Below, one piece after another: positions 5,484 to 22,583 of a stretch of DNA of 26,979 nt; the first letter of the stretch is position 1; each line of letters starts with the position of its first letter. The stretch spans positions 1 to 26,979 of the forward strand of contig JAEUMU010000013.1 in the NCBI GenBank assembly GCA_016791325.1, written 5' to 3'. Position numbers and translations under genes: made by a program. This DNA comes from Hyphomonadaceae bacterium (GTDB taxonomy: Bacteria > Pseudomonadota > Alphaproteobacteria > Caulobacterales > Aquidulcibacteraceae). The notes beneath the pieces are model-generated. The model saw nothing but the letters and a program-made list of their open reading frames with translations, made no database searches and was not told where the DNA came from.

Positions 5484-9578
<4,095 letters not shown>

Positions 9579-19852: not shown

Positions 19853-20182
19853 ATGCCGTATTTGTTCTTGGCCGGCGCGATCATCGCCGAAGTGGTGGCG
19901 ACGACAGCCTTGAAGGCGTCGGACGGGTTCACGAAATTCTGGCCCTCTGTCGTTGTCGTGATCGGCTATGCGATTGCGTTCTATCTTTTGGCGCTGGTGC
20001 TGAAGTCGATCCCGACGGGCGTGGCGTATGCGATCTGGTCGGGCGTGGGGGTGGTTCTGATCGCGCTGGCGGCGTGGCTGCTGCAAGGCCAGAAGCTCGA
20101 CGCGCCGGCGATGTTCGGCATGGGCCTCATCATCGCCGGCGTGGTGGTGATGAACCTGTTCTCGAAGACCATGGCGCATTGA
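19853..20182 (+). CDS. SMR-family multidrug efflux protein (EmrE-like)
   Basis: A 109-residue protein with four membrane helices, exactly the SMR size. Glu13 in [12 protein letters not shown] is the essential proton/substrate residue of helix 1, and [11 protein letters not shown] holds the conserved Trp of helix 3. The sequence follows EmrE/Qac closely, so export of quaternary cations by proton antiport is likely. It starts 6 bases after the reductase stop and is the last gene of the five-gene run. No terminator follows before the next promoter at 20209. Confidence 0.92.
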
Positions 20183-20208
20183 GCGCCGCGCGCCGCCCGT
20201 GCCCGCCG

Positions 20209-20250
20209 TCACATCCTTAGGGCGGAGGGCCTACTAGCTTGTCCTCATCG
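20209..20250 (+). promoter_or_regulatory. Conserved promoter-like block of small gene copy 2
   Basis: TCACATC (20209-20215), 19 bases, TAGCTT (20235-20240), 4 bases, TCATCG (20245-20250): the same elements and spacing as at 180-139 on the minus strand, with unrelated bases between them. Transcription probably starts near TCATCG, just before the hairpin. Confidence 0.5.
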
Positions 20251-20265
20251 GATCACGGTGATCCG
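20249..20265 (+). promoter_or_regulatory. 5'-UTR hairpin upstream of small gene copy 2
   Basis: CGGATCAC-G-GTGATCCG, a perfect dyad that as RNA would form CGGATC-ACGGT-GATCCG. It ends 18 bases before the ATG, against 17 in copy 1; the stem sequence differs but pairing is kept. As DNA it could instead be an operator. Confidence 0.5.
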
Positions 20266-20283
20266 GCCCAAGGAGCCAAGGAA

Positions 20284-20376
20284 ATGACCAAGTTTTACGC
20301 CCTCGTCGCCGCCTGCGCAGTGTTCGCCCCCATGGCCTTCGCCACGCTGAACCAAGCCTCGCAAATCTGGGCATGA
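20284..20376 (+). CDS. 30-residue exported or membrane small protein, copy 2
   Basis: Function unknown. ATG 20284 to TGA 20374-20376. It begins MTKFYALVAACAVFAPMAFA and ends TLNQASQIWA. AGGAG (20271-20275) lies exactly 8 bases before the ATG, as in copy 1 at 12-104. Of 93 bases 84 match copy 1, with four synonymous codon changes and three replacements; the most different site is residue 29 (Trp here, Val there). The AFA motif could be a signal peptidase site releasing a ten-residue peptide. It stands as a single-gene unit with its own promoter block upstream and an intrinsic terminator at 20452-20480. Alternatives are a small membrane regulator or a type I toxin-like peptide. Confidence 0.78.
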   Translation: MTKFYALVAACAVFAPMAFATLNQASQIWA

Positions 20377-20451
20377 TCCTCCGCCGCCAGCTTCACCAGC
20401 CGGGACGGCGTTGAGGGACGGAAGAGATTATGCGCAGCGAGAATTGCTGAA

Positions 20452-20480
20452 GGGCTCCGGATCGCACCGGGGCCCTTTTT
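20452..20480 (+). terminator. Intrinsic terminator of small gene copy 2
   Basis: GGGCTCCGG / CCGGGGCCC (9 bp including one G-U pair) with loop ATCGCA, then five T's. It separates the small gene from the radical SAM promoter 13 bases further on. Confidence 0.85.
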
Positions 20481-20492
20481 GCTGCGGATAAT

Positions 20493-20507
20493 GTTCTTGA
20501 TATGTTC
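20493..20507 (+). promoter_or_regulatory. SOS box (LexA site), GTTC-N7-GTTC
   Basis: GTTCTTGATATGTTC is an exact match to the alphaproteobacterial LexA site, two direct GTTC repeats with seven bases between. It covers the -35 element of the radical SAM gene promoter, so bound LexA would block polymerase. Confidence 0.8.
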
Positions 20508-20525
20508 TATTTGTAGGACTACAAT
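20497..20525 (+). promoter_or_regulatory. Sigma-70-type promoter of radical SAM gene, leaderless
   Basis: TTGATA (20497-20502), exactly 17 bases, TACAAT (20520-20525). The ATG begins at 20534, 8 bases after the -10, so the start site should fall on or within a base or two of the start codon. There is no Shine-Dalgarno sequence, which agrees with a leaderless mRNA. Confidence 0.75.
20511..20524. promoter_or_regulatory. Palindrome over the -10 of the radical SAM gene
   Basis: TTGTAG-GA-CTACAA, a perfect 6-bp dyad overlapping the -10 box. It could be a second repressor site beside the SOS box. The binding protein is not identified. Confidence 0.4.
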
Positions 20526-20533
20526 CCTGCATC

Positions 20534-21604
20534 ATGTCCCGCGACGCTTTGCATGGGCGCGGCGTGCGCAGCAATGCGAGCGGCCGCTACGAACGCTTCG
20601 CGCGCGAAGCGTTCGACGATGGCTGGGCTGAGGAGGCGGCGACGCCGCTGGAGACGATCGTGACGCCGGAGTCGGCCAGGACGATCATCTCGCGCAACAC
20701 CAGCCCCGATATTTCCTTCGATCAGTCGATCAACCCGTATCGGGGCTGCGAACATGGCTGCGTCTATTGCTATGCGCGGCCCAACCATGCGTATGCGGGG
20801 CTATCGCCGGGGCTCGATTTTGAAACCAAGCTGTTTGTGAAGGCCAACGCGGCCGAGCTGCTGGAGCGCGAGTTCGCCAAGGCCAGCTATCGCCCGCGCA
20901 CGATCATGCTCGGCGGCGTCACCGACATTTATCAGCCGATCGAGCGCGGCTATGGCGTCACGCGGGCGGTGCTGCAGGTGATGGAGCGCTGGCGCCATCC
21001 GGTGGCGCTGATCACCAAGTCGCAGCTTGTAATCCGCGATATCGATATTCTCGCGCCTCTGGCCGCGCGCGGGCTGGCGAAGGCGGCGATCTCAGTCACG
21101 ACGCTGGACCGGCGCCTCGCGCGGGTGATGGAGCCGCGTGCGGCAGCGCCGCACCGGCGGGTGGAGACGATCCGGGCGCTGGCGGAGGCGGGCGTGCCCG
21201 TCACGGTGATGGCCGCGCCAATTATTCCAGGCGTCAATGACAGTGAGATCGAGGCCATCCTCGAACACTGCGCCGCCGCCGGCGCAAGCGCTGCGGGCTA
21301 TGTGGTGTTGCGGCTGCCGCTGGAGATCAAGGATTTGTTCCGCGAGTGGCTGGCGCAGCATTTTCCCGATCGCGCCGGGCGCGTGTTGGCGCTGGTGCGC
21401 CAGATGCGCGGCGGGCGCGATTACGATCCCGAATGGGGCAAACGGCAGAAGGGCGAGGGCCCCTATGCGCAGTTGATCGCCGACCGCTTCGCCCGCGCCT
21501 GCCGCCGGCTGGGGCTGGATAAGCCGCGCCTGCCGCTCGATCACAGCCAGTTCCGCCGCCCGATCGAGAGCGGAGACCAGCAGGAATTGTTCGGTGGCGC
21601 GTGA
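20534..21604 (+). CDS. PA0069-family radical SAM protein
   Basis: A 356-residue iron-sulfur enzyme. The 4Fe-4S/SAM motif is YRGCEHGCVYCYAR with Cys72, Cys76 and Cys79. Around it lie the family features HGRGVRSNASGRYE near the N-terminus, SFDQSINPYRG before the cysteines, GGVTDIYQPIE and ITKSQLVIRDIDIL. The family is related to SplB-like radical SAM proteins (spore photoproduct lyase group), but its reaction is unknown; there is no evidence that this protein repairs spore photoproduct. The SOS-box promoter argues for a DNA-damage role. ATG 20534 fits both the conserved N-terminus and the promoter. Confidence 0.92.
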   Translation: MSRDALHGRGVRSNASGRYERFAREAFDDGWAEEAATPLETIVTPESARTIISRNTSPDISFDQSINPYRGCEHGCVYCYARPNHAYAGLSPGLDFETKLFVKANAAELLEREFAKASYRPRTIMLGGVTDIYQPIERGYGVTRAVLQVMERWRHPVALITKSQLVIRDIDILAPLAARGLAKAAISVTTLDRRLARVMEPRAAAPHRRVETIRALAEAGVPVTVMAAPIIPGVNDSEIEAILEHCAAAGASAAGYVVLRLPLEIKDLFREWLAQHFPDRAGRVLALVRQMRGGRDYDPEWGKRQKGEGPYAQLIADRFARACRRLGLDKPRLPLDHSQFRRPIESGDQQELFGGA

Positions 21605-21671: not shown

Positions 21672-22583
21672 ATGCGCATCGACAATCAGCGCCGTTCCGA
21701 CAATTTCCGCGACCGCGGCGCCGGCCGTGGCGGCGGCGGCGGCGGCGTGCCGGCCGCGGCGCTGTTCGCGATCCTCGGCAGACTTGGCTTTCGCGGCGTG
21801 CTGATCGTGGGCGTTATCGCGCTGGCGGCGTATTTCTTCGTGCCGGGCCTACGCGGGCCGATGATGGGCGCGCTGGGAATCGGCGGTGGCGGCGAAGTTG
21901 CGAGTTCCGGCGAAGTGTGCGCGCAGCACGAGCAGGCTTGCGATTTCTCGCGTGCGATCCTGGGCTCGACGGAAGACGTGTGGCGCGCGCAGTTCGCGCA
22001 AGGCCGCTTGCCGAATTATGGCCAAACGCCCAGCACCTATACCGATCCGACGTTGAACGTGTTTCAGGGGCAGGTTTCAACGGCATGCGGCGTGGCGCCT
22101 TCATCCGTCGGCCCGTTCTACTGCCCAGGCGACAACATGCTCTATATCGACCCGACCTTCTACGAGACGATGGCCACGCGCCTGCGCGCGCCGGGCGATT
22201 TCGCCCAAGCTTACGTCATCGCGCATGAAGTGGGTCACCACGTGCAAAACCTGATCGGCTCGATGCGCCGCGGCGCGCCGGGAGAAACGGAAAACCAAAC
22301 CTCCGTGCGCACGGAGCTGCAGGCCGATTGCTTTGCTGGCGTGTGGGGCCACACGGCGCGCGCCGATCTGGCCATCGACGATGCGGACCTGCGCGAAGCG
22401 TTGGGCGCCGCGCACGCCATTGGCGACGATACGTTGCAGCGGCAAAGCCAGGGCTATGTGAACCCCAACGAATTCTCGCACGGCACGAGCGCCCAGCGCA
22501 TGGCCTGGTTCCGCCGCGGCTTCGATAGCGGCGACGCGCGCCAGTGCGATACGTTCGCGGTGCGGGATTACAACGCGCTCTAG
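21672..22583 (+). CDS. ypfJ: YpfJ-type neutral zinc metallopeptidase
   Basis: A 303-residue protein of the Zn_peptidase (PF04228) family. A charged N-terminus with a Gly run (19-25) precedes one membrane helix (about 40-58), placing the rest in the periplasm. The zinc motif is HEVGHH (His185, Glu186, His189), with TELQADCFAG (Glu215) as the likely third ligand. CPGDNMLYIDP and the NEFSHGTSAQRMAWFRRGFD C-terminal motif are typical. GAGGAGG lies 9 bases before the ATG. Substrate unknown. Its TAG overlaps the stop of the opposite-strand gene. Confidence 0.92.
   Translation: MRIDNQRRSDNFRDRGAGRGGGGGGVPAAALFAILGRLGFRGVLIVGVIALAAYFFVPGLRGPMMGALGIGGGGEVASSGEVCAQHEQACDFSRAILGSTEDVWRAQFAQGRLPNYGQTPSTYTDPTLNVFQGQVSTACGVAPSSVGPFYCPGDNMLYIDPTFYETMATRLRAPGDFAQAYVIAHEVGHHVQNLIGSMRRGAPGETENQTSVRTELQADCFAGVWGHTARADLAIDDADLREALGAAHAIGDDTLQRQSQGYVNPNEFSHGTSAQRMAWFRRGFDSGDARQCDTFAVRDYNAL

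Follow-up and report, generated by a model that had tools for sequence, protein, structure and literature searches.

Comparative sequence analysis of a 26,979-nucleotide contig from a Hyphomonadaceae bacterium (JAEUMU010000013.1 of assembly GCA_016791325.1; this whole stretch is referred to as the window) revealed a predicted LexA operator, or SOS box, in the promoter of a gene encoding a radical S-adenosylmethionine (SAM) enzyme of the PA0069 family. The box is found at the same place in 197 of 215 alphaproteobacterial genomes, and relatives of the gene in Pseudomonas and among actinobacteria carry sites of other types. Repression by LexA, induction by DNA damage and radical chemistry on damaged nucleic acid together form, very probably, the best explanation of the locus. 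SOS control of the family in Alphaproteobacteria is close to certain, and in this organism it is slightly less likely than that. A gene that keeps LexA control while the DNA code of LexA changes is likely to be important in the damage response, and this family keeps it across most of the Alphaproteobacteria and Pseudomonas examined; the question of which lesion, if any, the enzyme acts on thereby becomes testable.

Predicted SOS box and promoter of the radical SAM gene

The box (GTTCTTGATATGTTC) is an exact match to the alphaproteobacterial LexA site GTTC-N7-GTTC and contains the whole -35 hexamer of a near-consensus promoter, as a first-pass annotation of the sequence had described. This promoter (TTGATA-17-TACAAT, 10 of 12 matches) is the sole sigma-70-like promoter in positions 20200-20800, where shuffled sequences give an expectation of 0.2. 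The ATG at 20534 follows the -10 hexamer by only 8 nt, and the transcript should therefore be leaderless or nearly so, starting at or within a few nucleotides of the start codon. LexA bound to the box would cover the -35 of this leaderless promoter. An intrinsic terminator directly upstream (folding energy -25 kcal/mol, z -4.3), unlisted by a simple scan, appears to isolate the SOS promoter, so that the radical SAM gene seems to have its own transcription start.

Absence of the box from close relatives had been named in the first-pass annotation as grounds for rejecting SOS control; all nine members of the genus analysed, window included, carry it. In all nine, the distance from the start of the box to an in-frame start codon is 38-41 nt, and eight have a -10 hexamer with at least four of six matches at a spacing of 16-17 nt. 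Among 95 promoters of the order, the box mostly reads GTTC-TTG-N-T-(T/A)-T-GTTC, with T, T and G at positions 5-7 in 92, 89 and 88 promoters, respectively, and the spacer TTG stands in register with the best -10 at 16-17 nt in 60 of them.

Conservation of the box in Alphaproteobacteria

A search for GTTC-N7-GTTC upstream of orthologues, suggested together with the original observation, was carried out in several genome samples. The PA0069 family was present above cut-off in 100 of 120 genomes of the order, and the upstream regions of all 100 were analysed. The exact site occurred within 500 bp in 95 and between -150 and +15 in 90, always on the strand of the gene; one of the 95 (G032) has it in the native promoter ahead of a split gene. 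Other spacings (3-6 and 8-13) were found in 0-4 of the 100 genomes, seven other words in 0-1, and dinucleotide shuffles gave a mean of 0.5 and a maximum of 2. In the class sample (190 genomes, 92 with the family above cut-off, of which 88 were used after setting aside three also present in the order sample and one gene fragment), the site was present in 28 of 30 genomes of other orders when 350 bp were inspected and in 48 of 58 when 500 bp were inspected, two of these sites lying on the opposite strand. Spacing and word controls were near zero in this sample as well. Alphaproteobacterial loci from a phylum-wide search added 26 of 27, which completes the 197 of 215 genomes, with the reservation that the samples are not phylogenetically independent.

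The sites are concentrated at the promoter: 60 loci with longer flanks held 57 sites in 19.7 kb of promoter DNA and four in 220 kb elsewhere. Copies on named plasmids or chromids carried the site in five of six cases (S. meliloti, Paracoccus ferrooxidans, Sphingomonas parapaucimobilis, Azospirillum brasilense and Shinella zoogloeoides), the copy of Methylobacterium bullatum having none in the 400 nt upstream and one at 486 nt.

The predicted SOS regulon

In the order, lexA promoters were fetched from 30 of the 118 genomes above cut-off, and every one has the same motif within 350 bp upstream of lexA. The host genome has sites at promoter position ahead of recA, ssb, radA, uvrB, ruvB, an operon of a DOPA-dioxygenase gene and uvrA, and a helicase-like gene with weak NCBIfam helicase matches only; the ruvB site is common to a divergent gene, and for radA and uvrB the promoter position depends on the chosen start codon. 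Judged from these sequence patterns, the LexA/SOS control first proposed for the radical SAM gene is supported as the best reading. Many of the remaining matches in the host genome, covered by long open frames, are probably due to chance.

Missing LexA was considered as a cause of missing boxes and rejected, as lexA is matched in 26 of the 27 genomes that have the gene and lack the box (24 of these matches are above cut-off). Thirteen of the 17 box-less alphaproteobacteria keep the motif upstream of lexA (in G223 the site is only 15 nt from the start of the match), and control of this particular gene can therefore be lost; in G194, one of the other four, the contig holds only 5 nt upstream of lexA, too little for a judgement.

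Contig 21 of G000 holds two GTTCN7GTTC sites 36 bp apart (7106-7156) inside the N-terminal part of an open frame, the body of which is similar to the zinc repressor Zur (118 bits against a cut-off of 167). If the real start codon lies downstream of these sites, a Fur-family regulator would be under LexA.

Other operators in other lineages

The phylum search covered 299 genomes, 111 of them above cut-off and 39 of these in classes other than Alphaproteobacteria. CTGTN8ACAG was found within 300 bp upstream of the gene in 29 of the 39 (other spacings 0-2, shuffles 0.1). A search directed at Pseudomonas, partly overlapping with the 39, revealed the same site at 79 of the best 80 of 167 loci (76 from Pseudomonas and four from Gammaproteobacteria, P. 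aeruginosa being absent), with other spacings at 0-1. The gene of Aeromonas caviae also has this site, and none was found upstream of the gene in Legionella adelaidensis. Five actinobacterial loci were analysed, without a spacing control: Streptomyces (GAACATGTGTTC) and Nonomuraea (GAACTGCTGTTC) carry exact sites, Arthrobacter (GAACATACATTC) and a second Nonomuraea gene (GAATACGTGTTC) carry sites with one mismatch, and the Tsukamurella locus has no N4-type site. Three unrelated predicted LexA operators are thus seen at this family, and the earlier suggestion that SOS control was kept across changed operators gains support from the Pseudomonas and actinobacterial relatives. In an unrooted tree of 112 proteins, the alphaproteobacterial (100/98), Pseudomonas (100/100) and actinobacterial (100/100) members are each set apart from the rest by a single branch, consistent with vertical inheritance of the gene while its operator changed; L298, L443, L448 and L463, with motifs that misfit the pattern, were left out.

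The first-pass annotation had also named PA0069 itself as a LexA-controlled gene of P. aeruginosa. This suggestion stays unconfirmed: no paper joining PA0069 with LexA was found in the literature searched, and P. aeruginosa lay outside the best 80 of 167 loci. According to the portion available of one article, which cites Cirz et al. 2006, 15 genes of P. aeruginosa are under direct LexA control, exerted at 11 operators (PMC12796719); its main text gave no match for PA00. Likewise, no paper joining Rv2578c with LexA was found.

In the Xanthomonas-type order of G383, 40 of 61 genomes have the family. Among the 30 loci analysed there, four carry CTGTN8ACAG, one the alphaproteobacterial site and two TTAGN6TACTA, which we take to be the xanthomonad LexA site; TTAGTAGTA(A/T)TACTA occurs at one lexA gene in each of four genomes of the family of G383 (f170). 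TTAGN6TACTA was rejected as a kept operator of the gene, both of its loci being full-length copies beside a split native gene and not native genes. Three genomes of this order (G580, G598 and G602) have CTGTN8ACAG at lexA and no site at the PA0069-family gene. The locus with the alphaproteobacterial box (L443, in the two-contig genome G594) has an unusually high family score (554.7 bits, the next in the order being 511.5) and CEQGC in place of CEHGC; the lexA match of this genome is weak, and its promoter has a GAACN7GAAC match. Transfer of the gene together with its operator is possibly the explanation, which would make L443 a candidate exception to vertical inheritance.

The radical SAM protein and spore photoproduct lyase

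The family assignment made from the sequence at first sight holds: the protein scores 519.3 bits against the NF033668 model (rSAM_PA0069, cut-off 360), with residues 8-353 aligned to positions 2-348 of 348, and 70.9 bits against PF04055. The three cysteines of the CxxxCxxC motif (C72, C76 and C79) are invariant in 72 of 72 aligned relatives. The nearest curated relative is the Rv2578c family (NF038135, 8e-61), whose Streptomyces proteins share 30-33% identity with the window protein. Next after the Rv2578c models comes radical SAM mobile pair protein B (TIGR04470, 7e-25), from which the window protein differs in reaching only 88 bits (cut-off 410) over residues 64-246; members of that family are annotated on plasmids of Bacteroides and others. 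A phage search gave 11 records with partial, distant matches, none spanning 80% of the protein, and an Rfam scan of the window gave no match.

Spore photoproduct lyase (SPL) is the nearest solved fold to the predicted structure (PDB 4FHC, 4FHE, 4FHF, 4FHG, 4K9R and 4RH0), heading the list with a lead of about 3 Z units and roughly 40-55 aligned residues over the entries that follow; the ranking covers the PDB_via list, and folds absent from that list are not excluded. Identity to the SPL structures is only 13-14%. The SPL model TIGR04070 gives 13.5 bits (E 0.025, cut-off 400), and SPL chains reach at best E 0.34 in a family-profile search. A fourth cysteine, C141 of the B. subtilis enzyme, is essential for repair in SPL, as stated in the available part of PMC3742179. 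The 72-row alignment contains no conserved cysteine outside the cluster motif, the best column having cysteine in 42 of 72 rows and not in the window protein; the substrate-facing position was not located in the model. SPL membership is rejected on these sequence tests, and SPL is kept as the nearest fold. The usual labels (SplB, or photolyase, as in the 'DNA repair photolyase' of one annotation source) are thus not supported by sequence.

Relation to published work

The idea of LexA control is not new. LexA sites were predicted in 2012 at 'splB' genes, named as homologues of B. subtilis SplB, in alpha- and betaproteobacteria (PMC3323433), and the principle of a LexA-controlled splB is thereby already in print. 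We infer that this splB corresponds to the PA0069 family; the part of the paper available gives no locus tags. S. meliloti is among its species, and the PA0069-family gene of S. meliloti has GTTCTTGCTTTGTTC 79 nt upstream of the start in our data. That paper covers multi-chromosome species and, in the same part, did not observe the trait in the gammaproteobacteria examined, whereas Pseudomonas widely carries the site here, which extends the SOS trait to this genus. It also reads the gene in terms of photoreactivation and SPL, which our sequence tests do not support. As far as the literature searched shows, the contribution made here is a wide census, the sites in Pseudomonas and the arguments against counting the family among SPLs.

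A radical SAM protein has been placed in the core Gram-positive LexA regulon and in that of Balneolaeota (PMC7739468), and SplB-like proteins have been linked to ImuB-C operons (PMC3765255). The Streptomyces radical SAM gene vnz_31145 shows a LexA peak in chromatin immunoprecipitation and 19.97-fold induction by mitomycin C, in a Gram-positive host and, unlike the window gene, with an imperfect box, TCGACCGTTCGCTC (PMC9380542). The Rv2578c-family gene of S. venezuelae, SVEN_6313, lies at 6.889 Mb (PMC12924846). From matching relative genome positions, vnz_31145 is probably the same gene as SVEN_6313. The chromosome length and tag range used in this matching are values that we presume. In Caulobacter, ccna_01391 and ccna_02355 have a common box, GTTCttgttatGTTC, the PA0069-family identity of either not being established in the text available (PMC12700426). 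No match for radical SAM, photoproduct or selected tags was found in PMC13384398 and PMC4211646, and the accessible portions of PMC6120978, PMC1839093 and PMC3789691 contain nothing on this gene.

Proposed mechanism and alternative explanations

In the mechanism that we propose, LexA would bind 20493-20507, cover the -35 and repress the leaderless radical SAM transcript. Upon DNA damage, RecA-stimulated self-cleavage of LexA would free the promoter and allow the enzyme to be made. The enzyme is predicted to use a [4Fe-4S] cluster, held by C72, C76 and C79, and SAM in a fold closest to SPL, and its likeliest job would be to carry out radical chemistry on nucleic acid that has been damaged. Either the route or the lesion would differ from that of spore photoproduct repair, because the family does not conserve the fourth cysteine, the hydrogen donor of SPL. 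For this organism, repression and induction are suggested by the conserved anatomy of the promoter, by alphaproteobacterial LexA biology and by the published induction of the probable Streptomyces relative.

Several observations weigh against this account, in its regulatory or its chemical part. The metagenome-assembled genome that holds the window (1.94 Mb in 249 contigs) gave no lexA, which is unsurprising because this assembly is 65% complete and lexA is present in the other 119 of the 120 order genomes, among them the eight that belong to the same genus. The exact box is absent from 12 of the 88 alphaproteobacteria of other orders and from five of the 100 order genomes; it is seemingly lost at this gene in a minority of the class. 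In the Xanthomonas-type order, 23 of the 30 loci analysed lack all four of the site types searched. The literature searched yielded no LexA binding or induction data for this organism. The available part of PMC12924846 places the Streptomyces relative at more than 4 A root-mean-square deviation from B. subtilis SplB, calls the link to DNA repair speculative and the SplB label doubtful, and takes inactivation of the gene by integration to suggest no significant fitness cost; its structural verdict is harsher than our fold comparison, which concerned a different protein and another aligner. DNA as the substrate is only proposed here, the SPL model being far below its cut-off.

Whether the box could be a chance match, the gene being free of SOS control, is a fair question for the motif taken by itself, which is weak evidence: at least one GTTCN7GTTC occurs in 48 of 100 shuffled windows, the reversed control pattern is more frequent in the host genome (56 matches) than the motif itself (36), and single-site statistics alone would not exclude chance. 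The expectation for a given 60 nt on one strand is about 0.0006 at the host-genome rate. As the box is conserved at the same place and the controls are near zero, it is more than chance; this explanation is rejected on the conservation in the order genomes together with the dinucleotide shuffles, it is nearly excluded for the family, and overall we regard it as extremely improbable.

The reaction is less certain than the control. The same SOS control could serve an enzyme that modifies tRNA, a protein or a small molecule, for example in growth arrest or redox recovery, and not one of DNA repair. We hold this to be a serious possibility at less than even confidence, against which stand the lead of SPL in the fold list and the DNA-acting genes rnhB (22 of 60 loci) and ccrM (20 of 60) near the gene on the same strand in Alphaproteobacteria. 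A genuine SPL at work in vegetative cells is improbable: the photolyase annotation, the 'splB' genes named in the SOS literature (PMC3323433) and the nearest solved fold speak for it, and the TIGR04070 score, the profile search and the unconserved cysteine speak against it. For a role of the enzyme on damaged nucleic acid, the balance is even. A bolder and rather unlikely version is that PA0069/Rv2578c proteins are core SOS enzymes that reverse a DNA lesion other than the spore photoproduct by radical SAM chemistry lacking the SPL cysteine, with SOS control kept through at least three unrelated operators and with splitting insertions that bring their own intact copy; if true, this would be a direct-reversal activity not yet described, to our knowledge.

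Split genes and neighbouring genes

In four genomes of two classes (loci L447 in G383, L444 in G605, L098 in G032 and L448 on contig 15 of G590), the codons of the CEHGC cluster motif are the point at which the family gene is split. Its 5' and 3' pieces lie about 6-24 kb from each other, on either side of a full-length homologue. The 3' piece of G383 matches residues 246-339 only. The inserted copies of G383 and G605 have their own TTAGN6TACTA, and the 750 nt holding the native 5' piece contain no known site type in either genome. In G032, the native SOS promoter and the broken native 5' piece come first, and the copy begins about 50 nt beyond that piece. Only in G590 does a tyrosine recombinase gene lie between the pieces. 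The match to the NCBIfam model of intein-containing Rv2578c proteins resumes at residue 79. In Streptomyces, this gene is an integration site of phage Samy, according to the part available of PMC12924846.

The genes rnhB and/or ccrM stand nearby on the same strand at 26 of 60 alphaproteobacterial loci (e.g., L040, L056, L151 and L155), downstream in 25 of the 26, and the SOS promoter may in places read into the genes for RNase HII and the CcrM methyltransferase. A Zn_peptidase gene is a neighbour at 10 of the 60 loci, window included. The features of the window are collected in Table 1.

Table 1. Features at the PA0069-family locus of the window (positions in nt).
Feature	Position	Strand	Remarks
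LexA operator (SOS box), GTTC-N7-GTTC	20493-20507	+	exact match
-35 hexamer TTGATA	20497-20502	+	wholly within SOS box
-10 hexamer TACAAT	20520-20525	+	17 nt after -35
PA0069-family radical SAM gene, 356 aa	20534-21604	+	predicted leaderless; NF033668, PF04055
[4Fe-4S]/SAM motif codons, C72-x3-C76-x2-C79	20747-20770	+	invariant in aligned relatives
Intrinsic terminator, 9-bp stem, 6-nt loop, five T	20452-20480	+	directly upstream of SOS promoter
Small-multidrug-resistance-family (SMR) transporter gene	19853-20182		PF00893
30-codon open frame MTKFYALVAACAVFAPMAFATLNQASQIWA	20284-20376		purine-rich stretch before; between SMR gene and terminator; read by eye
Zn_peptidase gene	21672-22583		PF04228

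The 30-codon open frame possibly encodes a small exported peptide.
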